From the NCBI RefSeq assembly GCF_900104475.1, contig NZ_FNJR01000009.1:1-64000 (forward strand): a DNA stretch of 64,000 nt, read 5' to 3'. Source of the stretch: Actinopolyspora xinjiangensis (GTDB lineage Bacteria > Actinomycetota > Actinomycetes > Mycobacteriales > Pseudonocardiaceae). The position numbers and the translations under genes were made by a program. Of this stretch, positions 26,113 through 51,500 are shown piece after piece (position 1 is the first letter of the stretch; every line of letters begins with the position of its first letter). The notes below the pieces were generated by a model. That model made no database searches, had not been told where the DNA came from, and saw only the letters and a program-made list of their open reading frames with translations.

Positions 26113-26308
26113 CGGGTGCCGCCCCGGACGGCGTCGATTCCCCGAACACACCCACGAAATCGCCGCGCCGGGGCGTCGTCGAGAAGCGAGCGTGAGAAGC
26201 GCGGCGCACGTGCCGGCTGACCGAGCACCGCGCCAGCGCGACCGGTACGTCAACGCCGCGCGAGGTTCCGCCGGGTAACCACCCAGCGCCCCACGCTGCC
26301 GACAGCGG

Positions 26309-34178: not shown

Positions 34179-34280
34179 CGGGAATCACCTCACCGGTTGA
34201 GGACGTGACCGCCGAACCACGGCGCCACGAGTTGTCGAGCGCGGGACCGCGGCGAGAGCCGGGCCGAACCCCACCGCTCC

Positions 34281-34400
34281 CACAGTCGGCACCGCCGCGG
34301 GTTCTCCGGTGCGGCTCTCGCGAGGAAGGCCCGACGCTGTGTAGTACCTACCCGAGGTCGGGCCTCCCGGAGCGAGAGCGGTGCGAGAGGTTCCGCCACC
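34281..34400. repeat. palindromic repeat, family A copy 1 (inside paa operon)
   Basis: The ~115-bp element runs from GCGGGTTCTC to GAGAGGTTCCGC. Inside are GCTCTCGC/GCGAGAGC and AGGCCCGAC/GTCGGGCCT stems around an apical GTAGTACCTAC. Related copies are at 40888-41000 (inverted), 46576-46694 and 51316-51412 (inverted). Confidence 0.85.
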
Positions 34401-34485
34401 GGACCACCGCGGCAGCTGAACGGTTCGGGCCATCCCCGCAGTCCTGTCATTGACCCGGGTGCCCAGCCTGACCAACCCGAGGTGC

Positions 34486-34587
34486 TCCGGTGCGTGAGTC
34501 GGGTGCGTCGCGAGGCAGCGGGGCACGTGGCGTAGGCCGCTACTCGAGGTGCCCCGCAACGCGGCGAGGCGCCGACTCACGTGCCGG
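34486..34587. repeat. palindromic repeat, family B copy 1 (inside paa operon)
   Basis: Outer arms GTGAGTCGG/CCGACTCAC, an inner perfect stem GCGGGGCAC/GTGCCCCGC, and an apical GTAGGCCGCTACTC. It is related to 47594-47703. It lies between family A copy 1 and paaB, so both hairpins would be in the paaB-paaC part of the operon transcript. Confidence 0.85.
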
Positions 34588-34623
34588 TAACCAACCACTC
34601 GGAAAGCCGTGCTGTGCGGAATT

Positions 34624-34968
34624 CTAGATATGGGGGACATCGTCGGGAATCTCGTAGAAGGTGGGATGCCGGTAGACCTTGTCCCCGTTCGGCGCGAAGA
34701 AGGGGTCCTTCTCGTCCGGACTGGAGGCGGTGATGTCGGCGGCGCGCACCACCCAGATGCTCACGCCCTCGTTACGGCGGGTGTAGAGGTTGCGCGCGTT
34801 GTGCAGCGCCATCTCCTCGTCGGCGGCGTGCAACGAGCCCACGTGCACGTGGTTGAGCCCCCGCTTGCCCCGGACGAACACCTCGAACAGCGGCCAGGCA
34901 GCGCTGGGGCGCTCCACCCCGGCGGCTTCCCGGCCACCCGCGTCCCCGGTTCCCGGTGGTGTGGTCAT
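34624..34968 (-). CDS. paaB: phenylacetyl-CoA epoxidase subunit PaaB
   Basis: 114 residues. After an N-terminal extension the family core is [20 protein letters not shown], then [20 protein letters not shown] and a C-terminal end [18 protein letters not shown]. PaaB bridges epoxidase heterodimers and is needed for assembly. ATG 34968 overlaps the paaA stop (ATGA), so the two are translationally coupled. Confidence 0.95.
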
Positions 34969-35933
34969 ACCGCGGCCCTCCCGCGTTCCGCCTGCTTCGC
35001 CGCGTGCGCCGCCGCGGCCTCGCGTACCCAGGCGCCGTCCTCGTGTGCCGCGCGGCGCCGCTCGACGCGCTGGGTGTTGCACGGTCCTTCGCCGGCCAGC
35101 ACCCGGTGGAACTCGTCCCAGTCGGGTTCGGAGAAGTCGTAGTGCCCCCGCTCCGGGTTGTAAACCAGCCCTGAGTCGGGGAGCTCGACCCCCAGCGCCT
35201 CGGCCTGGGGCACGGTCATGTCCACGAACTTCTGCCGCAGCTGGTCGTTGGTGTGCCGCTTGATGCCCCAGGCCATCGACTGCTGGGTGTTGGGCGAGTC
35301 CCCGTCCGGCGGGCCGAACATCATCAGCGAGGGCCACCACCAGCGGTCGACGGCGTCCCGCACGTCCCGCCGCTGCCGTTCGGAGCCGTTCATCATGGTC
35401 AGCAGCAGCTCGTAGCCCTGCCGCTGGTGGAAGGACTCCTCCTTGCAGATGCGGATCATGGCCCGCGCGTAGGGGCCGTAGGAGCACCGGCACAGCGGCA
35501 CCTGGTTCACGATGGCCGCGCCGTCGACCAGCCAGCCGATCACGCCGATGTCGGCGAACGTCAGCGTCGGGTAGTTGAAGATGGACGAGTACTTCTGCCG
35601 CCGCTCGACGAGCTTCTCGGTGAGTTCCGAGCGGTCGACGCCGAGGGTCTCGGCCGCGGAGTACAGGTAGAGCCCGTGACCGGCCTCGTCCTGCACCTTG
35701 GCGAGCAGGATCGCCTTGCGGCGCAGGCTGGGGGCCCGGGTCAGCCAGTTCCCCTCCGGCTGCATTCCGATGATCTCGGAATGCGCGTGCTGGGCGATCT
35801 GGCGGACCAGGGTCTTGCGGTAGCCCTCGGGCATCCAGTCGCGCGGTTCGACGCGCTGGTCGTGCTCGACGGTGGTCTCGAAGCGTTCCCGTAACCGCTC
35901 CTCGGTGGTGATCGTGGCCTCCTCGGTGCTCAC
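34965..35933 (-). CDS. paaA: phenylacetyl-CoA epoxidase catalytic subunit PaaA
   Basis: 322 residues with di-iron ligands visible in two E-x-x-H-type motifs: [13 protein letters not shown] and [13 protein letters not shown]. It adds one oxygen atom of O2 across the ring of phenylacetyl-CoA to give the 1,2-epoxide. GTG 35933 is preferred because AAGGAGG lies 6 nt upstream; a GTG three codons earlier overlaps that site. It follows paaZ by 100 bp in the same direction. Confidence 0.95.
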
Positions 35934-35996
35934 ACCACCCACCTCCTTCGTGAAGTCCTCGCTGCCCGGTCCTCCGGCCGGTCGAGCTGGTCGATC

Positions 35997-36022
35997 GGCG
36001 GAACCCCTCGCGGTCTCCCGCT
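35997..36022. repeat. fragment of palindromic repeat family A
   Basis: GCGGAACCCCTCGCGGTCTC matches the terminal 24 bp of the family A elements in inverted orientation, with few differences. Only one end is present. It lies in the paaZ-paaA spacer. Confidence 0.5.
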
Positions 36023-36033
36023 TCCGGCCCGGC

Positions 36034-38079
36034 TCATCCCTCCTCCTGGTGCTCCTTCGCCACGAGCGTGAGCACGTCGTACTTGGCGACGGACTCGCCG
36101 TCCTGGTTGGTCACGTCCGCGTCCCAGCGCACCTCGCCGTAGTCGGCGTTGTGGCGCGGCGTGATCCGTTTGGCGGTGAGCGTGACCGTGATCTCGTCTC
36201 CCGGGTAGGTCGGGGTGAGGAACCGCAGGTTCTCCAGGCCGTAGTTGGCCAGCACCGGGCCGGGTTCGGGCGAGACGAACAGCCCGGCCGCGAACGAGAC
36301 CACGAGGTAGCCGTGGGCCACCAGCCCCTCGAAGAACGGGTTCTCAGCGGCCGCCCGCTCGTCGGTGTGGGCGTAGAACTCGTCGCCGGTGAACTCGGCG
36401 AAGCGCCGCACGTCCTCCCGGGTGATGGTGCGCGGCCCGCCGACCACGCTGTCGCCGACACGCAGCTGCTCCAGGTACTTGCGGAACGGGTGGACCGCCG
36501 TGGTGTTCCGGGCGCTGCCCGGCATCCACTGCCGGGTCAGGGCGGTGAGGGTGTCCGGGTCGGCCTGCACGGCGGTGCGCTGCATGTGGTGCAGCACGCC
36601 GCGTATCCCGGCCATCTCCTCGCCGCCGCCCGCGCGGCCCGGACCACCGTGCACCAGCTGCGGCAGGGGCGAGCCGTGGCCGGTGGACTCGGCCGAGTCG
36701 TGCCGGTTGAGCACGAGCATCCTGCCGTGCTGCGAGGCGGCGCCGGTCACGACGGTGCGCACGAACTCGGGGTCGGCCGAGACGACCGAACCGACCAGGC
36801 TTCCGCTGCCCCGGCGCGCCAGCTCCACGGCGTGCTCGGCGTCGCGGTAGGGCATGACGGTGGTCACCGGGCCGAACGCCTCCACCTCGTGCGGCTGGGG
36901 CAGTTCCGGGTCGTCGCAGCGCAGCAGCATCGGGGGCACGAAGGCGCCCTGTTCGTAGTCGGCGTCGACGAGTTCGAACGGGGTGTTCGGATCACCGTGC
37001 ACCAGGCGGCACGACTCCAGCAGGCTCTTCAGCGAGCGGCGGACCTCCTCGCGCTGTTCGAGGTCGGCCAGCGCTCCCATGTCCACCTCGGGTGAGGCCG
37101 GGTTGCCGACCCTGATCCCGGCCAGCCGCCGCCGCACCGCCTCGGTCACCTCGTCGGCGAGCTCGGCGGGCACGAACGCCCGGCGCACGGCGGTGCACTT
37201 CTGCCCGGCCTTGACCGTCGTCTCGGTGACCAGCTGACGCACGAACAGTTCGAACTCCTCGCTGTCCGGGGTGGCGTCCGGGCCGAGGATCGAGCAGTTC
37301 AGCGAGTCGGCCTCGGCGTTGAACCGCACGCAGCTGCGCACCACGTTGTCGTGGGAGCGCAGCCGCCGCGCGGTGGCGGCCGAACCGGTGAACGACAGTG
37401 TGTCCTGCTCGGTCAGGTGGTCGAGCAGGTCACCGGGGTCACCGCAGAGCAGCTGGACGGAGCCCTGCGGCAGGATTCCGGACTCGACGATCAGCTCCAC
37501 CAGCCGGTGGGTGAGGTAGGCGGTCTGCGGCGCGGGTTTGATCAGGGTGGGCATCCCGGCGACGAACGCGGGCGCCAGTTTCTCCAGCGGTCCCCAGACG
37601 GGGAAGTTGAACGCGTTGATCTGGACGGCCACGCCCCGAAGCGGGGTGGCGACGTGCTGCCCCAGGAAGGTCCCCTGCTTGCCCAGCGGTTCCGTACCGC
37701 CGTCCACGTGCACGGTGTCGTCGGGGAGCTCGCGCCTGCCCTTGCTGGAGTAGCTGAACAGCACCCCGATACCGCCGTCGACGTCGAACTTGGAGTCGCC
37801 CTTGGTGGCCCCGGTGCGGGCGGAGAGGGCGTAGAGCTCCTGGCGGTGCTCGCGCAGGTGGGAGGCCAACGCCTTCAGCAGCGCGGCCCGCTGGTGGAAG
37901 GTGAGCTCGCGCAGCTCCGGACCGGCGGTCTCCCTGCCGTGGGTGAGCGCTGCGGCGGGGTCCAGTCCCGCCGTGGAGATCCGCGCGACCTCCTGCCCGG
38001 TCGCGGCGTCGTGCAGCGGTGTCCCCGGCCCCTCGGGCCGCTGCCACCGTCCCGCGAGGTAGCTGCGCAATGGCTCCAT
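36034..38079 (-). CDS. paaZ: bifunctional PaaZ: oxepin-CoA hydrolase / semialdehyde dehydrogenase
   Basis: 681 residues in two parts. Residues ~1-530 are an aldehyde dehydrogenase with FNAEADSLN and the catalytic Cys in [11 protein letters not shown]. Residues ~545-681 are a MaoC-like hot-dog hydratase with [12 protein letters not shown] and [20 protein letters not shown]. The hydratase half opens the oxepin-CoA ring and the dehydrogenase half oxidises the resulting aldehyde to 3-oxo-5,6-dehydrosuberyl-CoA. It is the first gene of the leftward paa operon, facing paaI across PaaR-type operators. Confidence 0.96.
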
Positions 38080-38208
38080 CGTCGCGATCTCCCTGGGTTG
38101 TCCGCCTGTTGTCCGAACGCCCGGTGCTCCTCGTCCGGGGCTCGCCGGTCGTCCGCCGAGCCGCCTCCGCCGGTCCCGCCGGGCGTGCCACGAACTCGAG
38201 TCCGCTTA

Positions 38209-38230
38209 TTACTGACCAATCGGTCGGTAA
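38209..38230. promoter_or_regulatory. PaaR-type operator 1 in paaZ/paaI divergent promoter
   Basis: TTACTGACCAATCGGTCGGTAA is a 22-bp inverted repeat (TTACyGACC arms, one mismatch). It lies 130 bp upstream of paaZ in a region with no gene. TetR-family PaaR proteins of actinobacteria bind ACTGACC/GGTCGGT-type palindromes, and paaR is the last gene of the rightward unit. Confidence 0.8.
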
Positions 38231-38344
38231 ATCATTGTGACGCAGAACAAGCTCGTGCACAATCACCTGACCGGCAGTTGCCCACGAAAAACCGTTGAAG
38301 ACCGACAGGGCGTCCCCGGAAGGGGCTCGGCCATCCCGAGCGGA

Positions 38345-38365
38345 CAACCGACTGTTCGGTCAGTA
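38345..38365. promoter_or_regulatory. PaaR-type operator 2, before paaI
   Basis: Read on the minus strand this is TACTGACCGAACAGTCGGTTG, the same layout as operator 1 with a different 4-nt centre. It ends 18 bp before the TTG chosen as the paaI start. The two sites would allow one repressor to control both directions. Confidence 0.72.
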
Positions 38366-38383
38366 TTTCGAGGTGGTGACCCC

Positions 38384-38803
38384 TTGGAGGCCGAACCCCC
38401 ACCGATAGCCGCCCCCGCGGCGGCGATGTTCGACGACGACCACGCCTCGAGGTCGCTCGGCATCGAGCTGCTCGAAGCGGCCGACGGCCGTTCGCTGGTG
38501 CGGATGCGAGTGACACCGGAGATGGTCAACGGGCACGCCATAGCCCACGGCGGCTACGTGTTCCTGCTGGCCGACACGGCCTTCGCCTGTGCCTGCAACA
38601 GCCGCGATCCGGTCACCGTCGCCGCGAGCGCGCAGATCACGTTCCTCACCCCGGCCCACCAGGGCGACGTGCTCTACGCCCGGGCCGTCGAGCGCCAAAC
38701 CAGGGGCCGAAACGGCATCTACGACACCACGGTCCTCCGCGACGACGCCTCGGGGGAGACCGTGGCCGAGTTCCGCGGGCACAGCCGCGCCATCAGGAGT
38801 TGA
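38384..38803 (+). CDS. paaI: phenylacetyl-CoA-pathway thioesterase PaaI
   Basis: 139 residues of hot-dog thioesterase. The active-site region is MVNGHAIAHGGYVFLLADTA followed by FACACNSRDPVTVAAS. TTG 38384 gives 14 residues before MFDDDHASRSLG, matching the length of E. coli PaaI; ATG 38426 is the alternative. PaaI removes CoA from hydroxylated or dead-end phenylacetyl-CoA products, protecting the free CoA pool. The next gene, paaK, begins 14 bp later. Confidence 0.92.
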   Translation: MEAEPPPIAAPAAAMFDDDHASRSLGIELLEAADGRSLVRMRVTPEMVNGHAIAHGGYVFLLADTAFACACNSRDPVTVAASAQITFLTPAHQGDVLYARAVERQTRGRNGIYDTTVLRDDASGETVAEFRGHSRAIRS

Positions 38804-38817
38804 AGGGATCAGCCACC

Positions 38818-40149: not shown

Positions 40150-40234
40150 CCGCCGAGCGCCACGGCCCCGAACGTCGCCGGGGTCGGCGGGCCGGCGCCC
40201 GCGCACCCCGGCGACTGCTGCGAGACTGGAGGCC

Positions 40235-40846
40235 ATGGCGGGTGCGGCTACGAACAACGGCGCGGGGCGGGGCAGACCGGGCTACGACCTCGACTCACTG
40301 CTGCGCACCGCCGTGAAGGTCTTCCACGAGCGCGGCTACGACGGCACGAGCATGGAGGACCTCGCGAAACGGCTCGGAATCACCAAGTCGGCCATCTACT
40401 ACCACGTCTCCAGCAAGCAGGAACTGCTGCGGATGAGCGTCGACCGGGCACTGGACGCGCTGTTCGCGGTGCTGGACGAACCCGAGTCGCTGGAGGGACC
40501 CGCCATCGACCGGCTGCACCACGTGGTACGGCGCAGCGTCGAGGTGCTGGTCGACGAGCTGCCGTTCGTGACCCTGCTGCTGCGGGTGCGCGGCAACAGC
40601 AAGGTGGAGCGGCAGGCCCTGGCCCGGCGCAGGGAGTTCGACCACCTCGTGGGGGAGCTCGTCGCCGAGGCGGAGCGCTCGGGCAGTCTGCGGCTGGACC
40701 TGGACCCGGCGCTGACCAGCAGGCTGCTGTTCGGGATGGTGAACTCGGTGATCGAGTGGTACCGCCCCCGGCAGGGGCTCACCAAGGAGGAGATCGCCGG
40801 GACCGTTACCACGATCGCGTTCGAGGGGTTGAAACGACGCGAATGA
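40235..40846 (+). CDS. paaR: TetR repressor of phenylacetate genes (PaaR)
   Basis: 203 residues. The HTH is LLRTAVKVFHERGYDGTSME, then DLAKRLGITKSAIYYHVSSK, and the C-terminal ligand domain is helical. The N-terminal 15 residues are Gly/Ala/Asn-rich. ATG 40235 is preceded by GGAGG. It lies 85 bp after paaK in the same direction, and two operator-like palindromes lie in the divergent paa promoter. Actinobacterial PaaR is released by phenylacetyl-CoA (family knowledge). Confidence 0.88.
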   Translation: MAGAATNNGAGRGRPGYDLDSLLRTAVKVFHERGYDGTSMEDLAKRLGITKSAIYYHVSSKQELLRMSVDRALDALFAVLDEPESLEGPAIDRLHHVVRRSVEVLVDELPFVTLLLRVRGNSKVERQALARRREFDHLVGELVAEAERSGSLRLDLDPALTSRLLFGMVNSVIEWYRPRQGLTKEEIAGTVTTIAFEGLKRRE

Positions 40847-40887
40847 GCTCTACCGTGCACGGCACGGGTTGCCGGAGTGGTCGCTCG

Positions 40888-41000
40888 GCGGAACCTCTCG
40901 CGGGCTCTCGCTGCGGCGCCGGAGACATCGAGTAGGTACTACGCCACGTCTCCGGCGTCCTCGCGAGAGCACCCCGAGAGAACCCGCGGCGGTACGAGTC
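40888..41000. repeat. palindromic repeat, family A copy 2 (inverted)
   Basis: Reverse-complement orientation of the 34281 element. The inner stem is GCCGGAGAC/GTCTCCGGC, the apex GAGTAGGTACTAC, and the ends GCGGAACCTCTC and GAGAGAACCCGC. Stem sequence differs from copy 1 but pairing is kept. It lies in the 420-bp spacer between paaR and the first permease; nothing else is identified there. Confidence 0.85.
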
Positions 41001-41266
41001 GCGAGGGCGGCTGTAAGCGGCTGGCGCCGCTTGACCGTCGTTTTCCCGGTTGGACTCGGGTGGTAGGTGCGGTGAGGCTGTGGATCCGAAGTGCCGCGCG
41101 GGCTCGGCCGGGCACGGTCGCTGCCCCGCGTCGCCGGGCCCGATCCGGACGGCGGTGTGAGCCGTGGTCGCGCCACGGGCGTGTCCGTGTTGCCGAATTC
41201 CCGTGTCTGCCCGACAGTGCTATGGGAACACCCAAGTGATTCCTATCACGCGAATGGGGCGGACAT

Positions 41267-42943
41267 ATGGGCACACCGGCCGCTTCACCGACCCGCGCGA
41301 CAGTGCAGCTCGATCACGGGGTGCGCAGGGACGTCAACAAGATCAGCCTGCTGTTCACCGGGGTCGGGGCGATCATCGGATCCGGATGGCTGTTCGGCGC
41401 CCTCTACGCCTCCCAGATCGCCGGACCGGCGGCGATCCTGTCCTGGGTGGTGGGCGCGGTCATGGTGCTGTTCATCGGGTTCGCCTACGCCGAGCTGTCG
41501 GTGATGTTCCCGGTCGTCGGCGGGATCATCCGTTTCCCCCACTACTCCTTCGGCTCCTTCGCCAGCTACAGCGCGGGGTGGATCAGCTGGCTGGCCGCCG
41601 CCGCGGTCACCCCCATCGAAGTGCTGGCCACCATGCAGTACGCCTACCCCTACGCGGGCTGGCTGATGACACCCGTGGAGGGAGAGTACCTGGTCAGCGG
41701 CTACGGTTGGTTGATCGCGATCGCGCTGATGGCCCTCTACAGCACGATCAACGCGCTGGGCGTGGGAGTCTTCGCCAGGCTGAACAACATCCTGGTGTGG
41801 TGGAAGCTCGCGGTGATCGTGCTGGTCATCGTGGTCTTCTTCGCCGTGTCGTTCAATCCCGGCAACCTCACCGACTTCGGCGGCTTCACCCCGGAGGGTG
41901 CGGGAACCATCTTCACCGCGATCCCGGCCGCGGGTGTGGCGTTTTCCTACCTGGGCTTCCGCAACGGCGTCGAGTTCGCGGGCGAGACCAACAACCCGCA
42001 GCGCAACGTGCCTTTCGCACTGATCGGCTCGGTGGTGATCACCGCGATCATCTACGTGCTGCTGCAGATCGCCTTCGTCACCGGGCTGCCGCAGCGGCTG
42101 CTCGGCGACGGGTGGGGTGAACTGACCTTCGCCGAGAGCGCGGGCCCGCTGGCCGGGCTGGCGCTACTGCTCGGCGTGGTCTGGATGGCCTGGCTGCTGC
42201 GCGTCGACGCGATCGTATCGCCCGCCGACACCGGGCTGATCTACGCGGGCGTGACCACCCGGCTGTCCTACGCCAACGCCCGCAACGACAACGCACCGCA
42301 GGCACTGACCCGGTTGAACCGGCGCGGGGTCCCCTGGGTCTCGGTGCTGCTGATGTTCGTGGTCGGGTGCCTGTTCTTCCTGCCCTTCCCCGCCTGGTCG
42401 AAGTTCATCGGCTTCATCACCTCGGCCTTCGCCGTCTCCTTCGCCCCCGGCTGTCTGGTGGTCGGAGCGATGCGACGCCAGCTGCCCGACCAGGAGCGCC
42501 CCTTCCGGCTACCCGGCGGCGACACGATTCCACTGCTGGCGTTCTTCTCGTCCAACCTGCTGGTGTTCTGGTCCACCTGGCCGATCAACGAGAAGATGCT
42601 CATCGGGTTGTTGGCCGGCTACGTGGTGTTCGTGATCTACCACGTGACCACCAAGCACGACACTCCGCCGGTGGATTTCAAGTCCGGCTCCTGGTTCCCG
42701 GTGTGGCTGGCCGGACTGATGGTGCTGAGCTACTTCGGCGAGGTCACGCCGAACCAGCCCGTCGACGAGGCGCTGCTGCTGCCGGGTGGTGACGGCCCGA
42801 TAGGGGTCGGACCGGGCGCGCTGATCATCGCGGGTTGGAGCGTGCTGATCTACTACTACGCGATGGCCGTACGGTTGCCGTCCCGACGTGCGGCGGCCTA
42901 CGTGGAGAAGACCCCGACCGACGCCCCCACCACGGCGGGCTGA
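41267..42943 (+). CDS. APC-family amino acid permease, tandem copy 1
   Basis: 558 residues with about 12-14 membrane helices. The first helix has the APC signature LLFTGVGAIIGSGWLFGALY, the glycine-rich substrate segment. Other landmarks are IIRFPHYSFGSFASYSAGWI and FSYLGFRNGVEFAGETNNPQ. It should import an amino acid by proton or cation symport; the pattern resembles the YveA-like aspartate/proton symporter branch. A second copy at 43392-45065 has long identical stretches and the same C-terminal end (EKTPTDAPTTAG). The two differ mainly in N-terminus and a periplasmic loop near residues 125-145. Confidence 0.92.
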   Translation: MGTPAASPTRATVQLDHGVRRDVNKISLLFTGVGAIIGSGWLFGALYASQIAGPAAILSWVVGAVMVLFIGFAYAELSVMFPVVGGIIRFPHYSFGSFASYSAGWISWLAAAAVTPIEVLATMQYAYPYAGWLMTPVEGEYLVSGYGWLIAIALMALYSTINALGVGVFARLNNILVWWKLAVIVLVIVVFFAVSFNPGNLTDFGGFTPEGAGTIFTAIPAAGVAFSYLGFRNGVEFAGETNNPQRNVPFALIGSVVITAIIYVLLQIAFVTGLPQRLLGDGWGELTFAESAGPLAGLALLLGVVWMAWLLRVDAIVSPADTGLIYAGVTTRLSYANARNDNAPQALTRLNRRGVPWVSVLLMFVVGCLFFLPFPAWSKFIGFITSAFAVSFAPGCLVVGAMRRQLPDQERPFRLPGGDTIPLLAFFSSNLLVFWSTWPINEKMLIGLLAGYVVFVIYHVTTKHDTPPVDFKSGSWFPVWLAGLMVLSYFGEVTPNQPVDEALLLPGGDGPIGVGPGALIIAGWSVLIYYYAMAVRLPSRRAAAYVEKTPTDAPTTAG

Positions 42944-43391
42944 CCCGCCCGCTTCAGGCGCGCACCGGTGCCGCCGACAGGCTCTCCCGTCCTCGCTCGC
43001 CCCGATGCCGTTCGCTCTCCTCGCGCCGAGGGAGCGTAGCGAGGTGTTCGCCGCGTTCCGGCGCGGCGGTGGTCTCGTCACCGGTTTTCCCGTTCCGGAT
43101 CGCGGACTCGACGACGTTCGACACGCGCACACGACTCGACCCGAGTTTCCCAGAATCCGGGACGAAGCCGGTCAGCGTCGGCGCCCGAATCCCGCGATCC
43201 TGATCACAGGGGACGGCGCGAATCGTCCGAGATGCCGCGCGATCGCATGGTCTGCGCACAGTGTCGTACACAAAATGTTACTTATTTGCGCGACAGGTTA
43301 ACCGTTTCGTGTTGACGACGCCGCCCGAATCCTAGAGAGTCCACGCTCACGGTAGTAATCGACCTCACAAAGGTATGGAAAGGGCGAATAG
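42944..43391. other. spacer between tandem permeases, promoter of copy 2
   Basis: 448 bp without a supported gene. The right part is AT-rich for this genome (43261-43345) and contains TTGACG followed about 16 nt later by TAGAGA. This is a plausible promoter for the second permease, which would then be expressed separately from the first. Confidence 0.5.
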
Positions 43392-45065
43392 ATGGCGACA
43401 CCAACTGCGCCACCGACGCAGGCCAAGGTGCAGCTCGATCACGGGGTGCGCAGGGATGTGAATCGGATCAGCCTGCTGTTCACCGGGGTCGGGGCGATCA
43501 TCGGATCCGGATGGCTGTTCGGCGCCCTCTACGCCTCCCAGATCGCCGGACCGGCAGCGATCCTGTCGTGGATCATCGGTGCGATCATGATCATGCTGAT
43601 CGGTTTCGTCTACGCCGAGCTGTCGGTGATGTTCCCGGTGGTCGGTGGCATCATCCGCTTCCCCCACTACTCCTTCGGCTCCTTCGCCAGTTTCAGCTCC
43701 GGCTGGATCAGCTGGCTGGCCGCCGCCGCGGTCACCCCCATCGAAGTCCTGGCCACCATGCAGTACGCCTACCCGTACGCGAGCTGGCTGATGGTGGAGT
43801 CCGACGGCGAATACCTGGTCCACGGGGCGGGCTGGTTCGTGGCCATCGGACTCATGGCGCTGTACAGCGGGATCAACGTACTCGGTGTCCGACTGTTCGC
43901 CTACCTGAACAACATACTGGTGTGGTGGAAGCTCGCGGTGATCGTGCTGGTCATCGTGGTGCTGTTCGCCGCCGAGTTCAACCCGGGCAACCTCACCGAC
44001 TTCGGCGGCTTCATGCCCAGCGGTGCTGGGGCCATCTTCACCGCCATACCGGCCGCCGGTATCGCGTTCTCCTACCTGGGCTTCCGCAACGGCGTCGAGT
44101 TCGCGGGCGAGACCAACAACCCGCAGCGCAACGTGCCCTTCGCACTGATCGGCTCCGTGGTGATCACGGCGATCATCTACGTGCTGCTGCAGATCTCCTT
44201 CATCACCGGACTGCCGGAACGGCTGCTGGGCAACGGTTGGGAGAACCTCGAGTTCGCCGAGAACGCGGGTCCGCTGGCCGGACTGGCGCTGACGCTGGGC
44301 GTGGCGTGGATGGCGTTCCTGCTGCGCGTCGACGCCGTGATCTCCCCCGCCGACACCGGGCTGATCTACGCGGGTGTGACCACCCGGCTGTCCTACGCCA
44401 ACGCCCGCAACGACAACGCACCGCAGGCGCTGACCAAGCTCAACAGCAAGGGCGTGCCGTGGGTGTCCATCCTGCTGATGTTCGTGGTCGGGTGCTTCTT
44501 CTTCCTGCCCTTCCCCGCCTGGTCGAAGTTCATCGGCTTCATCAGCTCCGCCTTCGCCGTCTCCTTCGCACCGGGCTGCCTCGTCGTGGGCGCGCTGCGC
44601 AGGCAACTGCCCGACCAGGAGCGCCCCTTCCGGTTGCCCGCCGGTGACCTCATCCCGGTACTGGCGTTCATCGCCTCCGGTCTGCTGGTGTACTGGTCGG
44701 GCTGGTCGATCAACGAGAAGATGCTCATCGGCCTGCTGGTGGGCTACGTGGTGTTCGTGATCTACCACGTGACCACCAAGCACGACACACCGCCGGTGGA
44801 CTTCAAGTCCGGCTCCTGGTTCCCGATCTGGCTCGCCGGGCTGATGGTCATGAGCTACTTCGGTGACATGGACGCCAGCGCCGAGGCGGCCGCCAGCCTC
44901 CTCAACGGGGGTGACGGGGTGCTCGGCATCGGCACGGGCTCGCTCGTGGTCGCGGTGTGGAGCGTGGCGATGTACTTCTACGCGATAGCGGTACGACTGC
45001 CCGCCCGCCGGGCCGCCGCCTACATCGAGAAGACCCCGACCGACGCCCCCACCACCGCGGGCTGA
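43392..45065 (+). CDS. APC-family amino acid permease, tandem copy 2
   Basis: 557 residues, closely similar to the permease at 41267-42943 along its whole length, including LLFTGVGAIIGSGWLFGALY and the shared end EKTPTDAPTTAG. Local differences include AYPYASWLMVESDGEYLVHG and a loop near residue 480 (MDASAEAAASLLNG). It is preceded by its own AT-rich putative promoter and followed by two strong hairpins. The pair is a recent tandem duplication, and the two copies could recombine. Whether they differ in substrate or only in regulation is unknown. Confidence 0.92.
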   Translation: MATPTAPPTQAKVQLDHGVRRDVNRISLLFTGVGAIIGSGWLFGALYASQIAGPAAILSWIIGAIMIMLIGFVYAELSVMFPVVGGIIRFPHYSFGSFASFSSGWISWLAAAAVTPIEVLATMQYAYPYASWLMVESDGEYLVHGAGWFVAIGLMALYSGINVLGVRLFAYLNNILVWWKLAVIVLVIVVLFAAEFNPGNLTDFGGFMPSGAGAIFTAIPAAGIAFSYLGFRNGVEFAGETNNPQRNVPFALIGSVVITAIIYVLLQISFITGLPERLLGNGWENLEFAENAGPLAGLALTLGVAWMAFLLRVDAVISPADTGLIYAGVTTRLSYANARNDNAPQALTKLNSKGVPWVSILLMFVVGCFFFLPFPAWSKFIGFISSAFAVSFAPGCLVVGALRRQLPDQERPFRLPAGDLIPVLAFIASGLLVYWSGWSINEKMLIGLLVGYVVFVIYHVTTKHDTPPVDFKSGSWFPIWLAGLMVMSYFGDMDASAEAAASLLNGGDGVLGIGTGSLVVAVWSVAMYFYAIAVRLPARRAAAYIEKTPTDAPTTAG

Positions 45066-45084
45066 GACCTCGGGAGACCACTTC

Positions 45085-45144
45085 GGGCCCGTTCCGGAAC
45101 GGGCCCCACCCGGACGGGGCGGGACCGCACGGTCCCGCCCCGTC
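45085..45144 (+). terminator. double hairpin after the second permease
   Basis: GGGCCCGTTCCGGAACGGGCCC (45085-45106, a perfect 22-bp palindrome) is followed by a second stem, GACGGGGCGGGACCG with its complement (45113-45127 and 45130-45144). Two tandem strong hairpins 20 nt after a stop are very likely a terminator. Confidence 0.85.
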
Positions 45145-45248
45145 TCGTGTCGCCCCCTGTCGAGTAGCGCACACCACACACCGGGGAGCCGACACGACGC
45201 CCCGCATACACTTCGGGGAGCAGGCACAGCAGGCAGACGGGAGTGGTG

Positions 45249-46172
45249 GTGTCCACCAACGGCGGAGCGAACCGGGTGGCGGTCGTGGTCAACACGCTGT
45301 CCCGGACAGGCGGCATCGCCTACACCCAGGCCGTACGGACCCTGGGCGAACTGGGCGTCCCCCTCGGAACCACCTACCCGCTCAGGGACCCGGCACGGCT
45401 GGTGGAGACGGTGCGCACGGCCGTCGACGAGGGGCACGACCTCGTGATCATCGGCGGTGGCGACGGCACCATCAGCTCGGTGGTGGACGTGCTGGCCCAC
45501 ACCGGCGTTCCGATGGGGCTGCTTCCGCTGGGAACGGCCAACGACTTCGCCCGCACCCTGGAGATCCCCACCGAGATCGAGAAGGCCTGCGAGACGATCG
45601 CCCGAGGCAAGGTGGTCGACATCGATCTCGGGCTGTGTGGCAACAACTACTACGCCAACCGGGCCTCGGTCGGCATCGGAGCGAATGTCGCCAACGCCAT
45701 GTCCCCCGGGCTGAAGAAGGTCGTCGGTTCGCTGGCCTACCCGGTAGCCTCGGCGAAGGGATTCCTGCGGCACCGACCGTTCCCGGCACGGCTGACCTTC
45801 CCCGACGGGGACCACCCCACCAGGGAGTTCAACAGCCTGCTGCAGGTCTCCGTCGCCAACGGCCGTTACTTCGGCGGCGGCCAGCTCGCCGTGTCCGACT
45901 CCGGCATCGACGACAGTACGCTGGACGTGACGGTGATCAAGCACGGCAACATCCGCGAACTGGCCACTGTGGTGCGCAACTTCAAGAGCACGAAGCTGCT
46001 GGAGACCGACCAGGCCGAGCACATCCGTACCAGGCGGGTCCGGCTGGAGACCACTCCGAACATGCCGATCAACATCGACGGCGAGCTGGTGGCCGGAACC
46101 CCGGGTGACTTCTCGGTGGCTCGGAACGCACTGCACGTGGTCGTGCCGCGGGACTGGGTGGACGGTGGCTGA
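45249..46172 (+). CDS. diacylglycerol kinase / YegS-like lipid kinase family protein
   Basis: 307 residues. The kinase motif VIIGGGDGTISSVVDVL and LPLGTANDFARTLEIP define the DAGK catalytic domain; a beta-rich C-terminal domain with VSVANGRYFGGGQ follows and ends in the NIDGEL segment typical of YegS. It phosphorylates a lipid hydroxyl (diacylglycerol, ceramide-like or other) with ATP at the membrane face. GTG 45249 has GGGAG 5 nt upstream; two further GTG codons precede it. It lies behind the double terminator, so it has its own promoter. Confidence 0.9.
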   Translation: MSTNGGANRVAVVVNTLSRTGGIAYTQAVRTLGELGVPLGTTYPLRDPARLVETVRTAVDEGHDLVIIGGGDGTISSVVDVLAHTGVPMGLLPLGTANDFARTLEIPTEIEKACETIARGKVVDIDLGLCGNNYYANRASVGIGANVANAMSPGLKKVVGSLAYPVASAKGFLRHRPFPARLTFPDGDHPTREFNSLLQVSVANGRYFGGGQLAVSDSGIDDSTLDVTVIKHGNIRELATVVRNFKSTKLLETDQAEHIRTRRVRLETTPNMPINIDGELVAGTPGDFSVARNALHVVVPRDWVDGG

Positions 46173-46268
46173 GGGAACGCGAGCCGAGCGGCCACGCGCC
46201 GTGCGCCCGCTCCCGAGGCAGACCCTGGCGAACAACGACGCTTCCGGACCGGTGAGGAACGACCACCG

Positions 46269-46466
46269 TTGACGATGTGGAACTACAGCAACGCACCGAG
46301 ATGCACGGTGTGCGCGCACCGCGCGATCATCACCAAACAGCAGGCCCAGACCCTGGTGAACTCCTCGGAAGGCAGACTGGTCGCCTATCAGTGCCCGATC
46401 GAGCTCTCCAGCTGGCACGTGTGGGCGCCGGAGTTCGAACGGGCCGACCGCGGCGAATCCGAATAG
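46269..46466 (+). CDS. small Cys-motif protein, hypothetical
   Basis: 65 residues. A C-x2-C pair near the N-terminus (RCTVCAH) and a later YQCP with a nearby His (SSWHVW) suggest a small zinc-binding fold; the middle is TKQQAQTLVNSSEGRLVAYQ. TTG 46269 is at a good distance (10 nt) from GAGGA; ATG 46275 is the alternative. Unknown function, probably real because composition and motif look conserved. Confidence 0.6.
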   Translation: MTMWNYSNAPRCTVCAHRAIITKQQAQTLVNSSEGRLVAYQCPIELSSWHVWAPEFERADRGESE

Positions 46467-46575
46467 GACGATCCGGATTTCGCCCTGGCAGCGTCGTCTT
46501 CCCACGAAATCGCCGCGCCGCTTCGACGCGGTGCCGAGTGCCCACGACTCCCGCAGGCCGAGCTCCGACCACCCT

Positions 46576-46694
46576 CACAGTCGGCACCGCCGCGGGTTCT
46601 CTCGTGGTGCTCTCGCGAGGACGCCCCCGACGTGGCGTAGTACCTGCTCGATGTCTCCGGCGCCGCGGCGAGAGCCCGCGAGAGGTTCCGCCAC
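46576..46694. repeat. palindromic repeat, family A copy 3
   Basis: Same orientation as 34281-34400 and sharing ACAGTCGGCACCGCCGCGGG at its left end and GCGAGAGGTTCCGCCACC at its right. The outer stem GCTCTCGC/GCGAGAGC is intact and the apical segment GTAGTACCTGCTCGATGT is nearly kept. The inner stem is partly mismatched. Confidence 0.85.
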
Positions 46695-46726
46695 CCGCAC
46701 CGCCCCGCAAACCGCGCCAACAACCC

Positions 46727-47458
46727 TCAACTGACGAGTTCGAAGGTGACGGCGTGTTCGACGCCGAAGGCGGCCCCCGCTTCGGCGGTCGTGCGGTGCA
46801 GGAAGTCGCGCGCCATGTCCTCGGGTGCCTGTTCGGTGAGCGCCGACAGGTAGGTGGCGTGCGCGGCCAGCGACTCCACCGCCCGGCCGAGGGTAGGGCC
46901 GACGTCGACCGCGTGCGTGGGATGCGGGGACCCGGCCACGGCGATCCGGCGTACCCCGTTCCAGGGCGGCAGGTTCTCCTCGGTGACCAGTTCGGGAAAG
47001 ATCCAGCGGTTTCCCGCGTCGCCCACGGCGTCCAGCGCGGCCCTGCCCACGGCGCGGTGATCCGGGCTGTTCCAGCCGCCGAACCCCCAGCGGTCGTAGT
47101 GGTTGAACGTGACGACCAGTTCGGGACGGACTTCCCGGATACCGCGCGCCAGGTCGCGCCGCAGCGCGGTGCCCTCCTCGATGACGCCGTCCCGGTGGTC
47201 GAGGAAGCGAACATCCTCCACCCCGACCAGGGCGGCGCTCGCCCGCTGTTCCCGCTCGCGCAGCGGACCGGCCTGCTCGGGAGCGAGCCCGTCGATACCG
47301 GCCTCGCCGCGCGAGGCCAGCAGGTAGGAGACCCCGTGTCCTTCCTCGGTCCAGCGCGCCACCGCGGCACAGGCGGCGAACTCCACGTCGTCCGGATGCG
47401 CCACGATCACCAGCGCGTGCCGCCAGTCGGTCGGCATGGGTTCGAGTGACTCGGTCAT
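46727..47458 (-). CDS. PIG-L/LmbE family deacetylase
   Basis: 243 residues. The zinc motif VIVAHPDDVEF near the N-terminus and the later NSPDHRAVGRA are the two metal/catalytic segments of the family, which removes N-acetyl groups from sugars (mycothiol MshB and Mca, GlcNAc-PI). ATG 47458 is preceded by GGGGG at 4 nt; an upstream TTG would add seven residues. Composition does not settle whether the substrate is mycothiol-related. It is flanked by two palindromic repeats and has no operon partner. Confidence 0.88.
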   Translation of the reverse strand: MTESLEPMPTDWRHALVIVAHPDDVEFAACAAVARWTEEGHGVSYLLASRGEAGIDGLAPEQAGPLREREQRASAALVGVEDVRFLDHRDGVIEEGTALRRDLARGIREVRPELVVTFNHYDRWGFGGWNSPDHRAVGRAALDAVGDAGNRWIFPELVTEENLPPWNGVRRIAVAGSPHPTHAVDVGPTLGRAVESLAAHATYLSALTEQAPEDMARDFLHRTTAEAGAAFGVEHAVTFELVS

Positions 47459-47593
47459 GAAACCCCCGTCTTCGGCCAAGGATCGGTCACAGAAGTTACC
47501 GGTTCACCGGGTTCCGGGCACAGAAGTCACCGATCTCGCCCGGAAATCGCCGTGTCGCCCGTCGAGACGGGACCACGCGGAACGCGGCGCACG

Positions 47594-47703
47594 GAGCACC
47601 GGCACGTGAGTCGGACGCATTGCGAGGCCGGGCCGCTCGCCGCGTAGGTGGCTACTCACCAGCCGGCCCAACGCAGCGAGGCGCCGACTCACGTGCCGGC
47701 TAC
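47594..47703. repeat. palindromic repeat, family B copy 2
   Basis: Perfect 16-bp outer arms CCGGCACGTGAGTCGG (47599-47614) and complement (47684-47699) enclose inner partly paired GC-rich arms and the apical GTAGGTGGCTACTC. It aligns along its length with 34486-34587. Confidence 0.88.
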
Positions 47704-47739
47704 GCAACCAGCGCAGTGAAGTGCTGTGCGACCTCGCGG

Positions 47740-49398
47740 CTAACCAAGATCGCGGGCGATCGCCCGCCCCGCGTTACGCCCCGAGAACACGCAACCACCG
47801 AGGAAGGTCCCTTCCAGCGCGTTGTAACCGTGCACCCCGCCGCCGCCGAATCCCGCGACCTCACCGGCCGCGTAGAGCCCGTCGAAGGCCGAACCGTCGG
47901 GGCGCATCACCTGCGAGTCCAAATTGGTCTCAAGACCGCCCAGGGTCTTGCGGGTGAGCGGTCGGAGCCGTACCGCGACCAGCGGCCCGTTGCCACTGTC
48001 GAGCAGCCCGTGCGGTGTGGCTACCCGGATCGCCCTGTCGCTGATGAAGCGGCGCGCCGTGCGGATCGCCGAGGCCTGCATGTCCTTGCCGTAGGGACGG
48101 CTCATCTCGGCGTCCCGCGCCGCCACCCGATCCCGCACGGCCCCGAAGTCCAGCAGCGACTCGCCGGTGAGCTCGTTCATGCCGTCGACCAGGTCCCGCA
48201 GGTTGTCCCGCACCACGAAGTCGACGCCGTGGCGCTTGAACGCCTCGACCGGGCCGGGAGCCCCCTTGCGCACCCTGGACAGCAGCTTGCGTGGGCTCTT
48301 GTCCGTCAGGTCCGGGTTCTGCTCCGAGCCCGACAGCGCGAACTCCTTGGCCAGGATGCTTTGGTCCAGCAGGAACCAGCTGTAGTCGTGACCGGTGCCG
48401 AGGATGTGGCGCAGCGTCCCCATGTTGTCGAATCCCGGGAAGTACGGCGCGGGCAACCGCTCACCCGTGGCGTCCAACCACATCGAGGAGGGCCCCGGAA
48501 GAATGCGGATACCGTGCCCCGGCCAGACCGGATCCCAGTTGGTGATGCCCTCGGTGTAGTGCCACATCCGGTCCCGATTGACCACGCTGGCACCCGCGCG
48601 CTCACCGATGTCGAGCATCCTGCCGTCCACGTGCGCGGGAACCCCGGTGAGCATGTGCTCCGGCGCCCGGCCCAGCCAGGAGGGCCAGTTCCGGCGGACC
48701 AGCTCGTGGTCGCCACCGATGCCGCCGGAGGTGACCACCACGGCCTGCGCGTGGTACTCGAACTCCCCCACCACGTTCCGCGAGGAGGCCACCCCTCGTC
48801 GTTCGGCGGAGGGCTCCAGCACACCGCCGCGCACGCCGTACGCGGCACCGTCGGAGACGAGCAGCTCGTCCACCCGGTGGCGGTACCGGATCCGCACCAG
48901 GCCCGCGCGCTCGGCGCGCAGCACCCGCTCGGCGAACACCCGTACGATCTCGGGTCCGGTTCCCCAACCGAAGTGGAACCGGGGCACCGAGTTGCCGTGG
49001 GACGTGGCGGTGCCGCCGCCTCGCTCGGCCCACCCCACGAAGGGCATGAACCGCATCCCGAGCCCGCGCAGGTAGGAGCGCTTCTCCCCGGCCGCGAACT
49101 CGACGTAGGCCCGGGCCCAGCGGCGCGGCCAGTAGTCGGCCTCCGGCCGGTCGAAGGCGGCGCTGTTGTTCCAGTCCCGCAGCGCCAGCTCGTAGCTGTC
49201 CCGCACGCCGAGCCTGCGCTGTTCCGGACTGTCCACGAGGAACAGCCCGCCGAGGGACCAGTGGGCCTGCCCGCCGAGGTTGTCGGCGTTCTCCTGCTCG
49301 ACCAGCAGCACGGATCTGCCCGCGCGGGTCAGCTCGTAGGTGGCCACCAGTCCGGCCAGGCCCGCCCCGACCACGATGACGTCCGCGTCCGATGCCAC
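47740..49398 (-). CDS. FAD-binding dehydrogenase, KstD/fumarate-reductase family
   Basis: 552 residues. The N-terminal dinucleotide site is VIVVGAGLAGLVATYELTRA and the C-terminal FAD segment is LYAAGEVAGFGGGGVHGYNA then LEGTFLGGCVFSGRNAG. This organisation is shared by 3-ketosteroid delta1-dehydrogenases and related flavoproteins that oxidise or reduce C-C bonds. No steroid genes are nearby, so the substrate is open. GTG start at 49398 is preceded by GGGAGG. It is monocistronic. Confidence 0.85.
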   Translation of the reverse strand: MASDADVIVVGAGLAGLVATYELTRAGRSVLLVEQENADNLGGQAHWSLGGLFLVDSPEQRRLGVRDSYELALRDWNNSAAFDRPEADYWPRRWARAYVEFAAGEKRSYLRGLGMRFMPFVGWAERGGGTATSHGNSVPRFHFGWGTGPEIVRVFAERVLRAERAGLVRIRYRHRVDELLVSDGAAYGVRGGVLEPSAERRGVASSRNVVGEFEYHAQAVVVTSGGIGGDHELVRRNWPSWLGRAPEHMLTGVPAHVDGRMLDIGERAGASVVNRDRMWHYTEGITNWDPVWPGHGIRILPGPSSMWLDATGERLPAPYFPGFDNMGTLRHILGTGHDYSWFLLDQSILAKEFALSGSEQNPDLTDKSPRKLLSRVRKGAPGPVEAFKRHGVDFVVRDNLRDLVDGMNELTGESLLDFGAVRDRVAARDAEMSRPYGKDMQASAIRTARRFISDRAIRVATPHGLLDSGNGPLVAVRLRPLTRKTLGGLETNLDSQVMRPDGSAFDGLYAAGEVAGFGGGGVHGYNALEGTFLGGCVFSGRNAGRAIARDLG

Positions 49399-49606
49399 GA
49401 CCGCACCTCCCGTTCGTCTCGGGTTCGCAGCTCAGCCGTCGCGGGTCCCACCACGGTGGTGGGAACGACGGTCGGTCACCGGCCGCGGCCGGGTTCCGTG
49501 CATCCATCCCACCGTCCGATCGGCCTCGCGCGAGGCGTGAGTCACGAAACACTATCCGATACTCACCGGGACCGGAACAGTCCTTTCGGAAACCGTCGAC
49601 GACACG

Positions 49607-51274
49607 TCAGCGCGAGGCGACCTCGCCGGGTGCCTCCCCTGTCTCCTCCGGACGAGCCCTGTCGGGCGCCCCGGTGGCGTGGTAATCGGCCTCGACCGTG
49701 GTGTCGGTGCCCTCCGCTGCGCCGAACCGTCGCACCAGCGGGGTCAGCACCACCGCCACCAGCAGGTTGAGCAGCAGTGCCACCGCTCCCACGTAGATCT
49801 GGGTCTCGATGCCGGAGAGCGGCTGCCAGCCGAAGAGACCGAAGTCCGACAGCGGCATCGCGGAACCACCGAAGTGCCCCTCGCCGGTGGCCGGGTCCTT
49901 GGGTATCAGGTACAGCCGCCAGAGCCCCCAGGCCATGCCGACCGCCCAACCGGCGACCAGCGCCCAGCGATGCAGCCACCTGGTGTAGAGCGCGATCGCC
50001 ACGGCGGGCAGGGTCTGCAGCACGATCACCCCACCGATGAGCTGCATGTCGATGGAGAACTGCGGGTCGATGAACACGATGCTCAGTACCGCGCCGAACT
50101 TGACCACCAGCGAGGCGAGCTTGGCCTGCTTGGCCTCCTGGGCGGGGGTGGCGCCGGGGCGCAGGTGCTCCTTGTAGATGTTGCGTGTCCACAGGTTGGC
50201 CGCCGCGATGGACATGATCGCGGCCGGGACCAGGGCCCCGATGCCGATGGCCGCGTAGGCCAGGCCCGCGAACCAGTCGGAGAACATCCGGTCGAACAAC
50301 ACCGGCACGATCGTGTTGGAGTCCGGTTCGCCGGTGGCACCGTTGACGATGGGCTCGACCCCGGCGGCCAGCGCGGCGTAGCCCAGCAGCGCCAGCATGC
50401 CGAGCAGGAACGAGTATGCGGGCAGCGCGACCATGTTGCGCCGGATGACCCCGCGTCCGGAGGAGGCCAGGATGCCGGTCAGTGAGTGCGGGTACAGGAA
50501 GAGCGAGAGCGCCGAGCCCAACGCGAGTGTGGCGTACTGCAGTTGGTTGTGCTCGCCGAGCAGGATCGATCCGGATCCACCCGAGTCCGGATCGGACAGT
50601 TCGGCGGCGGACTCGTCGATGATCGATCCCCAGCCGCCGAGCTGGGTGGGCAGGTAGAACACCGCGACGATGATGACCGCGTAGATCAGCAGGTCCTTGA
50701 CGAAGGCGATCAGCGCGGGCGCGCGCAACCCGGACTGGTAGGTGTACAGCGCCAGCACCACGAAGGCGACGAACAGCGGGGCGTGCCCGGCCAGGCCGCC
50801 CGCGTTGAGCCCCATCGTGCGCAGCACCGCCTCCAGACCGGCCAGCTGCAGCGCGATGTAGGGCATCGTGGCGACGATGCCGGTGACGGCGATCAGCGTG
50901 GCCAGCAGCGACGACCCGTAGCGGCCGCGCACGTAGTCGGCGGGGGTGACGTAGCCGTGCACTCTGGACACCGACCACATGCGCAGCAGTGGCAGCAGCA
51001 CCAGCGGGTAGAGCACCACGGTGTAGGGCAGCGCGAAGAAACCCATCGCACCGGCCCCGAAGACCAGGGCCGGAACCGCGACGAAGGTGTAGGCGGTGTA
51101 GAGGTCTCCGCCCACCAGGAACCAGGTGATCCAGGAGCCGAACTTGCGGCCCCCGAGCCCCCACTCGTCCAGGTGTTGCATGGACTCGGCCCGGCGCCAG
51201 CGCGTGGCGGCGAATCCCAGGACCGAGACGAACAGGAAGAGCCCGGCGAAGACGCCGAATTCGGTCCACTGCAT
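49607..51274 (-). CDS. sodium:solute symporter (MctP-like monocarboxylate/SSS family)
   Basis: 555 residues with about 13 membrane helices. It starts with FGVFAGLFLFVSVLGFAATR. GGRKFGSWITWFLVGGDLYT is the first helix pair of the SSS family, and YVTPADYVRGRYGS and SLSLFLYPHSLTGILAS are further landmarks. The tail is acidic. With the small DUF3311 protein encoded upstream in the same direction it makes the usual actinobacterial pair importing acetate, pyruvate, lactate or related acids. The start at 51274 lacks a clear ribosome site. Confidence 0.9.
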   Translation of the reverse strand: MQWTEFGVFAGLFLFVSVLGFAATRWRRAESMQHLDEWGLGGRKFGSWITWFLVGGDLYTAYTFVAVPALVFGAGAMGFFALPYTVVLYPLVLLPLLRMWSVSRVHGYVTPADYVRGRYGSSLLATLIAVTGIVATMPYIALQLAGLEAVLRTMGLNAGGLAGHAPLFVAFVVLALYTYQSGLRAPALIAFVKDLLIYAVIIVAVFYLPTQLGGWGSIIDESAAELSDPDSGGSGSILLGEHNQLQYATLALGSALSLFLYPHSLTGILASSGRGVIRRNMVALPAYSFLLGMLALLGYAALAAGVEPIVNGATGEPDSNTIVPVLFDRMFSDWFAGLAYAAIGIGALVPAAIMSIAAANLWTRNIYKEHLRPGATPAQEAKQAKLASLVVKFGAVLSIVFIDPQFSIDMQLIGGVIVLQTLPAVAIALYTRWLHRWALVAGWAVGMAWGLWRLYLIPKDPATGEGHFGGSAMPLSDFGLFGWQPLSGIETQIYVGAVALLLNLLVAVVLTPLVRRFGAAEGTDTTVEADYHATGAPDRARPEETGEAPGEVASR

Positions 51275-51315
51275 TCTATTGAGGTCTTCCGTTCGAGTTT
51301 CCGGGGTGTTCGAGT

Positions 51316-51412
51316 CGCGGAACCTCCCGCCTGCTCTCGCTCCGGGGGACCGACATCGGCTGGGGACCGCACGACGTCGGGCCTTCTCCGCGAGAGCCGA
51401 AGCGGGAGTCCC
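51316..51412. repeat. palindromic repeat, family A copy 4 (inverted)
   Basis: Inverted orientation, most diverged copy. GCGGAACCTCCCGCCTGCTC at the left and GCGAGAGCCGAAGCGGGAGT at the right keep the outer arms. The inner stem ACCGACATCGG...CGACGTCGGG resembles copy 1. The apex has lost the GTAGTAC motif. It lies in the spacer between the symporter and DUF3311 genes. Confidence 0.75.
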
Positions 51413-51500
51413 CGTGGCGATGCGGGTCGCCGGGGTGGCGGTTCGGCGCCCGCGCGCCGAAAGCATCGTCAGTGTGCGTAATACGTCGGGAAGACACGGG

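Follow-up and report, generated by a model that had tools for sequence, protein, structure and literature searches.

Two related families of palindromic intergenic repeats in an actinobacterial genome share a narrow spacing from stop codons and vary between orthologous sites

Ribosome stalling at repetitive extragenic palindromic (REP) sequences has reportedly been studied by Deutscher's group, and the enterobacterial repetitive intergenic consensus (ERIC) by De Gregorio. REPs are described as palindromes of 20–40 bp that are located predominantly downstream of coding regions (PMC3733652), and in E. coli, REPs that lie no more than 15 nt from a stop codon are reported to stall ribosomes (PMC12306157). 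According to PMC2229807, ERIC (also IRU or RU-1) is a 127-bp enterobacterial intergenic repeat with terminal inverted repeats, TA termini and target-site duplications, and YPAL (RU-2) is a 168-bp repeat of Yersinia with target duplications of 3–26 bp, which targets areas of dyad symmetry. Here, a stretch of 64,000 nt from an actinobacterial genome (G000:C16:1–64000, in the following "the window"; genome size 5.04 Mb in 33 contigs) was analyzed, in which a sequence-only reading had noticed a dispersed family of intergenic hairpins with two types, A and B. These repeats are homologous and structured and lie dispersed in the genome; between orthologous sites they vary in presence and type, and their tail points towards a gene boundary. 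A/B works like a non-autonomous repeat of the ERIC/REP type, yet it fails tested defining features of both; it is probably a non-autonomous mobile palindromic repeat.

The search was carried out with a covariance model of A, built from 33 A copies (R1), and a B model (R2). All four A and both B full copies of the sequence-only reading were recovered, the A elements at 34275..34400 (+ strand, hairpin with 22-nt 5′ flank, 131.6 bits), 40884..41009 (−, 109.9 bits), 46570..46695 (+, hybrid inner stem, 105.1 bits) and 51313..51437 (−, 87.8 bits), and the B elements at 34483..34606 (+, L031, 126.1 bits) and 47595..47719 (+, L056, 132.8 bits). A 30-base A pattern with up to three mismatches matched three times in the window and never in 100 dinucleotide shuffles. 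A further fragment at 35997..36025 (− strand, ~56 nt from the paaA start), found by reading the sequence, shows GGCGGAACC, CTCGCGG and short A-like strings; R1 did not match it at E ≤ 0.01, and it may be an A remnant. In the whole genome, DNA queries revealed at least 44 A and at least 42 B matches, with the best 40 of 177 A and the best 40 of 108 B first-look candidates scored. With R1, 137 matches at E ≤ 0.1 among 150 scored candidates were merged to 122 distinct A places; 37 of the 42 B places overlap no A place. The earlier description of the copies as lying only between genes is largely right, with 7 of 49 copies overlapping an open reading frame (ORF) called by a crude gene caller by more than 15 bases.

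The position of the copies relative to gene ends is narrowly defined. Gene boundaries were taken from a codon-usage caller with errors, e.g., a long antisense call at 43365–46505, and an improved version was used for the spacing analysis. Within the genus of G000, a stop codon on the opposite strand is located 28–50 nt from the hairpin 3′ end in 69 of 95 A copies (median 38 nt, SD 3.8), and 13 copies face a same-strand start codon at 40–65 nt. For the remaining 13, at least four (window 34275, L004, L030 and L194:18552) adjoin a B element. The stop-facing and start-facing classes comprise 26/35 and 4/35 copies in G000 alone, 28/42 and 3/42 in six other genera, and 17/35 and 2/35 for B, compared to 113/2820 and 173/2820 when position and orientation were drawn at random in spacers of 140 bp or more. 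A count of the motif GCGGAACCTC, for which the covariance model was not used, peaks at the same place, with 34 occurrences at 20–60 nt past 867 stop codons and 10 in the rest of the 400 nt. The spacers are tandem for 24, convergent for 14 and divergent for 3 copies (41 classified of 49). In the window, four elements obey the stop rule: the A elements at 40884 (3′ end ~40 nt past the stop of a TetR gene, antisense to it) and 46570 (34–35 nt from the stop of a PIG-L gene on the − strand), and the B elements at 34483 (36 nt from the paaB stop) and 47595 (40 nt from the stop of an FAD-binding (PF00890) gene on the − strand). The A element at 34275, between the called ORF 33288–34178(−) and paaB, is 227 nt away from the paaB stop because the B element sits between them, and the one at 51313 is start-facing, 43 nt from the start of the called ORF 49607–51274(−).

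In the A unit, an imperfect hairpin (~100 bp) is framed by a head of ~36 bp and a tail of ~28 bp. The 3′ flank is conserved as far as ~28 nt past the hairpin and then drops to background, and the unit therefore ends ~10 nt before the stop codon. This tail-to-stop gap is approximate, since a recent B pair (L043/L046), near-identical over ~150 nt and divergent outside, puts the 3′ boundary nearer, ~10 nt after the hairpin. The tail motif was also considered as a pre-existing insertion target and rejected as such: within 20 nt of 563 stop codons that lack A or B, it is only about twice as frequent as expected (12 and 9 per 10-nt bin versus ~5). Because of this slight enrichment, it looks like a part of the element.

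The A strand folds into a stable hairpin, with −83.3 kcal/mol for copy L002 of G000 versus −42.9 ± 3.5 for its shuffles (z −11.5) and −69.2 for its complement; for the B copy at 34483 the values are −76.3 kcal/mol and, for its complement, −61.1 kcal/mol. Covariation was analyzed on 98 distinct rows from this genus and other genera. In the A alignment, 96.6% of the cells are paired and 23 of 38 pairs show two-sided changes. The covariation score of 0.189 exceeds that of the shuffles (0.068) and of alignments slid by 1–3 columns (0.025–0.042), the two-sided cells amount to 172 versus 34.5 in the shuffles, and none of 500 shuffles reached any of five covariation measures, with an alignment fitted to the model and related rows (some orthologues) both favouring structure. 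The covarying stems hold, and the GGCCCGAC/GCCGGAGAC swap of the inner stem is real, being seen even at a single orthologous site (window 40884). Two outcomes would have spoken against the family, no further copies in the genome and no support for the stems, and neither was observed. Chance palindromes or an alignment artefact as the source of the pattern have a negligible probability and are ruled out by the pattern, fold and covariation shuffles and the slides. In the apical stem, GTAG and CTAC pair with each other (A8 columns 77–81 with 90–94). In the internal loop beside this stem (A1 columns 72 and 85), U.C is changed to C.U in several copies, usually together with G at column 70.

The two strands differ in fold stability, with the A strand as the more stable one in 92 of the 95 copies from this genus and in 36 of 42 elsewhere. 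At five ancestral wobble pairs of this genus, 344 of 375 cells are G.U. All 42 copies from six other genera share two wobble pairs, and outside these 62 G.U face 23 A.C cells, some at genus-specific positions. We take this to mean that the A strand is under selection in active lineages and that the copies afterwards decay neutrally. As the ancestral wobbles are G.U on the A strand in all seven genera examined, we infer that selection for spreading acts on the folded A strand, either as single-stranded DNA (ssDNA) or as RNA.

These data also bear on a different explanation, namely dispersed transcription terminators or mRNA 3′-end protectors that are spread by gene conversion and kept near stop codons by selection. 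It would explain the position just past stops in tandem and convergent spacers and the sequence exchange between copies, and 3′ ends without A or B are likewise over-structured in about the first 75 nt past the stop, as judged from folds of up to 70 sequences per class. The strand that enters the host mRNA is, however, the weaker folder in 92 of the 95 copies and has A.C where the A strand has the ancestral G.U, and for 13 of the 95 the gene boundary ahead is a start codon. Terminators are expected to scatter more than the ~4 nt spread seen here, which is counted against this explanation as well. On the mRNA strand the head consensus shows no T-run after the hairpin, which speaks against the U-tract type only. 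Sites 40884 and 51313 are empty in the relatives G001 and G006; one such counter-argument is weakened by an A remnant beside the same gene at site 34275 in G001, a member of the other clade of the genus. Taken together, we consider terminators or protectors rather unlikely.

Comparison of the window with five relatives (G001, G003, G004, G005 and G006) revealed a turnover of the elements at orthologous sites. Site 34275 carries A in G003 and nothing in G006, the hairpin was lost between CCGCG repeats in G004, a hairpin-less A remnant is located in the spacer in G001, and G005 has an A remnant plus a second A in the slot where G000 has B. This B slot (34483) is empty in G003. At 40884, G003, G004 and G005 are filled with differing inner stem types, whereas G001 and G006 have a short element-free spacer. 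Orthologous copies of 46570 are present in G003, G004 and G005, and the same three genomes are filled at 51313, where the genes of G001 and G006 abut without a spacer. Site 26200 has B, a B remnant, an A/B chimera, A, A and nothing in six genomes. The window itself contains a B remnant there (~26190..26230, + strand, from the orthologue alignment), whose hairpin is gone between two CACGTG copies compared to an intact B in G003. The chimera in G004 (C14, ~302.9 kb; L223:7852–7993) joins the 5′ half of A and the 3′ half of B at the shared apical loop. Its two arms no longer match each other.

As judged from sequence likeness, A and B are homologous and form two branches of one family. R1, a model of A, matches the B element of the window at 34465–34591 with 46 bits. 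Furthermore, both are found together: an A lies no more than 300 bp away from 23 of the 37 B places, versus 0.7 expected from the genome-wide density, an expectation that ignores that A and B are both intergenic. Among these pairs, eight have the A 3′ end next to the B 5′ end, ten are head to head, five have the A 5′ end next to the B 3′ end and none is tail to tail. The match-to-match gap is 68–73 nt in six of the eight A 3′–B 5′ pairs, which is about the sum of an A tail and a B head.

Orientation was further compared with the direction of replication. dnaA is located near base 1,000 in G003, G021, G022 and G023 and at 3.59 Mb in G009; the terminus was taken as the point opposite to it. Among the matches listed, one orientation relative to the fork was found for 71 of 86 in G022, 30 of 30 in G021 and 6 of 7 in G023. 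As gene-strand baselines, available for G022 and G003, 179 of 336 sampled genes of G022 and 170 of 297 in the first 400 kb of G003 are on the leading strand. Such a polarity would also be obtained by preferential loss of copies that have the more stable strand on the lagging template.

On balance, we favour a REP/ERIC-like non-autonomous repeat whose folded strand is selected and which enters beside gene ends. Behaviour as a mobile element, as proposed in the sequence-only reading, is supported by the 122 A places in G000, by an occurrence that covers 15 of the family's 46 genera, and by orthologous sites that differ in whether a copy is present, has been lost or has been exchanged. In this scenario, a trans-acting factor would insert a new unit just past a stop codon, and the new unit would displace older ones away from it, so that A and B would stack head to tail. 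Later, copies would drift, exchange or fuse by recombination, and slippage between short direct repeats would remove hairpins. As a part of the host mRNA, the element would form a strong hairpin in the 3′ UTR (untranslated region); transcript ends are therefore likely to be affected, though as a secondary consequence.

Several results weigh against this reading. The Y1/RAYT (REP-associated tyrosine transposase) domain PF01797 gave no match in G000 even at E ≤ 10, in a search whose control was positive in 10 of 14 genomes. At E ≤ 1 it was not found in the element-rich genomes G002 and G022, while the remaining 10 of the 12 relatives tested have it. RVT_1 was not found in 14 of 16 carriers tested, G000 among them. 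No target-site duplication was detected, with a flank identity of 0.586 within and 0.591 between copies (39 copies). None of the orthologous sites compared holds a clean recent insertion that could be matched to a donor, and the clearest insertion in one genome (site 49590, in G003 only of four) carries a degraded A. Replication polarity is weak in this genus among the top matches listed (21/34 in G009 and 15/19 in G003). Outside the five ancestral pairs, 31 G.U and 35 A.C cells of this genus give no strand bias, and strand-specific selection is not seen in its individual copies. B fits the spacing less well (17/35), some of the 95 A copies are orthologues of one another and not all are independent, and the stop spacing itself could be a product of selection after insertion. 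That targeted insertion at gene ends causes the spacing is, in our view, possible rather than probable.

Mobilization of a REP or REPIN (a REP doublet) by a RAYT transposase of the Y1 HUH type, since lost from G000, was considered as well. High copy number, palindromic structure and a position downstream of ORFs agree with the description of REPs in PMC3733652, GTAG is present in the apical stem, the replication-tied orientation in G021 and G022 is expected for ssDNA transposition, and eight of the nine further genomes of the genus contain PF01797. The looked-for partner is missing, though, as no PF01797 match exists in G000, G002 and G022. Among eight PF01797 loci of relatives, one has an A copy within the ~3 kb locus, estimated as about the element-density expectation, and the domain was rejected as a partner. 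Hairpin length and the position of GTAG also differ from REPs. We consider this history improbable. Of the earlier label "REP-type", the mobile dispersed hairpin is supported, and a strict REP is not, given the ~100-nt palindrome, GTAG paired at the apex and the missing PF01797 in the three genomes.

A reverse transcriptase was rejected as the mobilizer too, with RVT_1 in only 2 of 16 carriers and none in G000, versus 8 of 16 genomes without R1 matches. One of the latter (G012:C1) has four RVT_1 matches that do not differ in score or E-value; they may belong to an active group II intron or a comparable element.

Compared to the known systems, A/B resembles REPs, bacterial interspersed mosaic elements (BIME) and REPINs in being high-copy, palindromic and mostly downstream of coding regions, as far as these are described in PMC3733652. 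It differs by the ~100-nt hairpin, the apical paired GTAG and the fixed antisense orientation 28–50 nt from a stop codon; the unpaired GTAG or CGTC at one palindrome end that defines REPs is not seen in A, where GTAG is paired in the apical stem. With IS200/IS605, it shares a folded single strand as the probable substrate and a replication-tied orientation (in two genera for A/B), whereas G000 has no PF01797 and one of eight such loci in relatives adjoins an A. ERIC is like A/B in its size class, long stem-loop, intergenic location, co-transcription with neighbours and lack of a proven mobilizer. By description, it is unlike A/B in its terminal inverted repeats, TA termini and target duplications, none of which was seen in A/B with its approximate boundaries, and no fixed stop-codon spacing is given for it in the available text (PMC2229807). 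YPAL, according to the same text, is likewise not A+T-rich and has internal inverted repeats and empty and filled sites. It is described as lacking TA ends, which were not seen at the approximate boundaries of A/B either; it makes target duplications, whereas A/B shows no duplication signal and a gene-end address instead (PMC2229807).

Imperfect inverted ends (GCGGGTTCTC/GAGGTTCCGC), size and copy number would suit miniature inverted-repeat transposable elements that descend from an insertion sequence bearing terminal inverted repeats. Against this, no target-site duplication signal was detected, and no TA dinucleotide was seen at the inferred, approximate element boundaries. We consider such an origin very unlikely.

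The REP/ERIC-like reading leaves room for a more specific, though unlikely, proposal: an undescribed mobilizing system that is neither HUH Y1 nor a canonical reverse transcriptase and that would use the end of translation or transcription as an address, joining a folded single strand ~10 nt past stop codons. This distance would roughly correspond to the 3′ edge of a terminating ribosome or to a site of RNA-polymerase termination. If so, each unit would enter at this point and push older ones away, and 3′ UTRs would grow outwards from the gene. Bacterial intergenic palindromes are often located downstream of genes; the new aspect is the narrow, oriented stop spacing in several genera. Being common to two exchangeable families, it is a specific clue to the site choice of repeats, and this stop-codon address could make A/B more than another ERIC/REP-like repeat. 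Part of the 3′-UTR sequence of this bacterial family would be derived from mobile elements, and A/B offers a testable system for the movement of orphan REP/ERIC-like repeats.

The distribution figures concern A, as B was searched in G000 and in fetched stretches only. In family-wide and class-wide R1 searches (strict filters, 8 or 9 candidates scored per genome), A was positive in 79 of 390 genomes of the family, representing 15 of 46 genera, and in 2 of 394 genomes of the class-wide sample, G000 and G291, both of the same family. In a set of 61 genomes, 16 were positive, with 0 of 24 outside the family. Within the genus, G007 has three matches and nine other genomes including G000 have at least 57 each. 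Among the genomes searched, A was found only in one actinobacterial family, probably the Pseudonocardiaceae. In a poorly resolved PaaA tree, the closest named sequences are from Saccharopolyspora. Spread by phages or plasmids was rejected, as one A copy matched none of 50,697 phage and 72,556 plasmid records, and a single pattern match in a viral contig looks like chance in low-GC DNA. R1 on 32 of 80 named actinobacterial paa loci gave one weak Mycobacterium match (E 0.017), which was taken as chance. An Rfam search of the window at gathering scores revealed three tRNAs only and no A or B match; one A copy gave six matches, all sub-threshold and five of them to miRNA precursor models. No report on such repeats in this group was found in the open-licence literature, so that the sequence-only reading of a family not obviously described is consistent with Rfam and with this literature.

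In G009, a stretch of 380 kb (G009:C1:20001–400000, L172–L190) is without A at E ≤ 0.01 with R1, whereas the first 400 kb of G003 have many copies. The coding density of the first 400 kb is 0.852 in G009 versus 0.787 in G003, and this part of G009 may be acquired DNA. Synteny between the two regions was looked for, and only one match of 1.4 kb was obtained.

Additional observations were made in and around the window. The spacer at 34178–34626, which contains an A and a B element, lies within a run of paa (phenylacetate) genes and measures ~450 bp versus ~100 bp in G006. Two adjacent paralogous ORFs (41267–42943 and 43392–45065) share stretches with 79–87% identity, the first matching amino-acid permease families. 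A short palindrome, TTTC.CGCGAAA, is mildly enriched at 20–60 nt past stop codons (6 matches, 867 stops) and is perhaps another terminator-like family. Finally, a degenerate 24-nt unit (GCCGAACTCCNACCACTCNCGCAG) occurs in tandem ahead of A, e.g., at 46540–46590 in the window and in L008, L009 and L011. A tail resembling this unit follows A, B and a GGCGCC palindrome, and units of this type are possibly leftovers of elements minus their hairpins.

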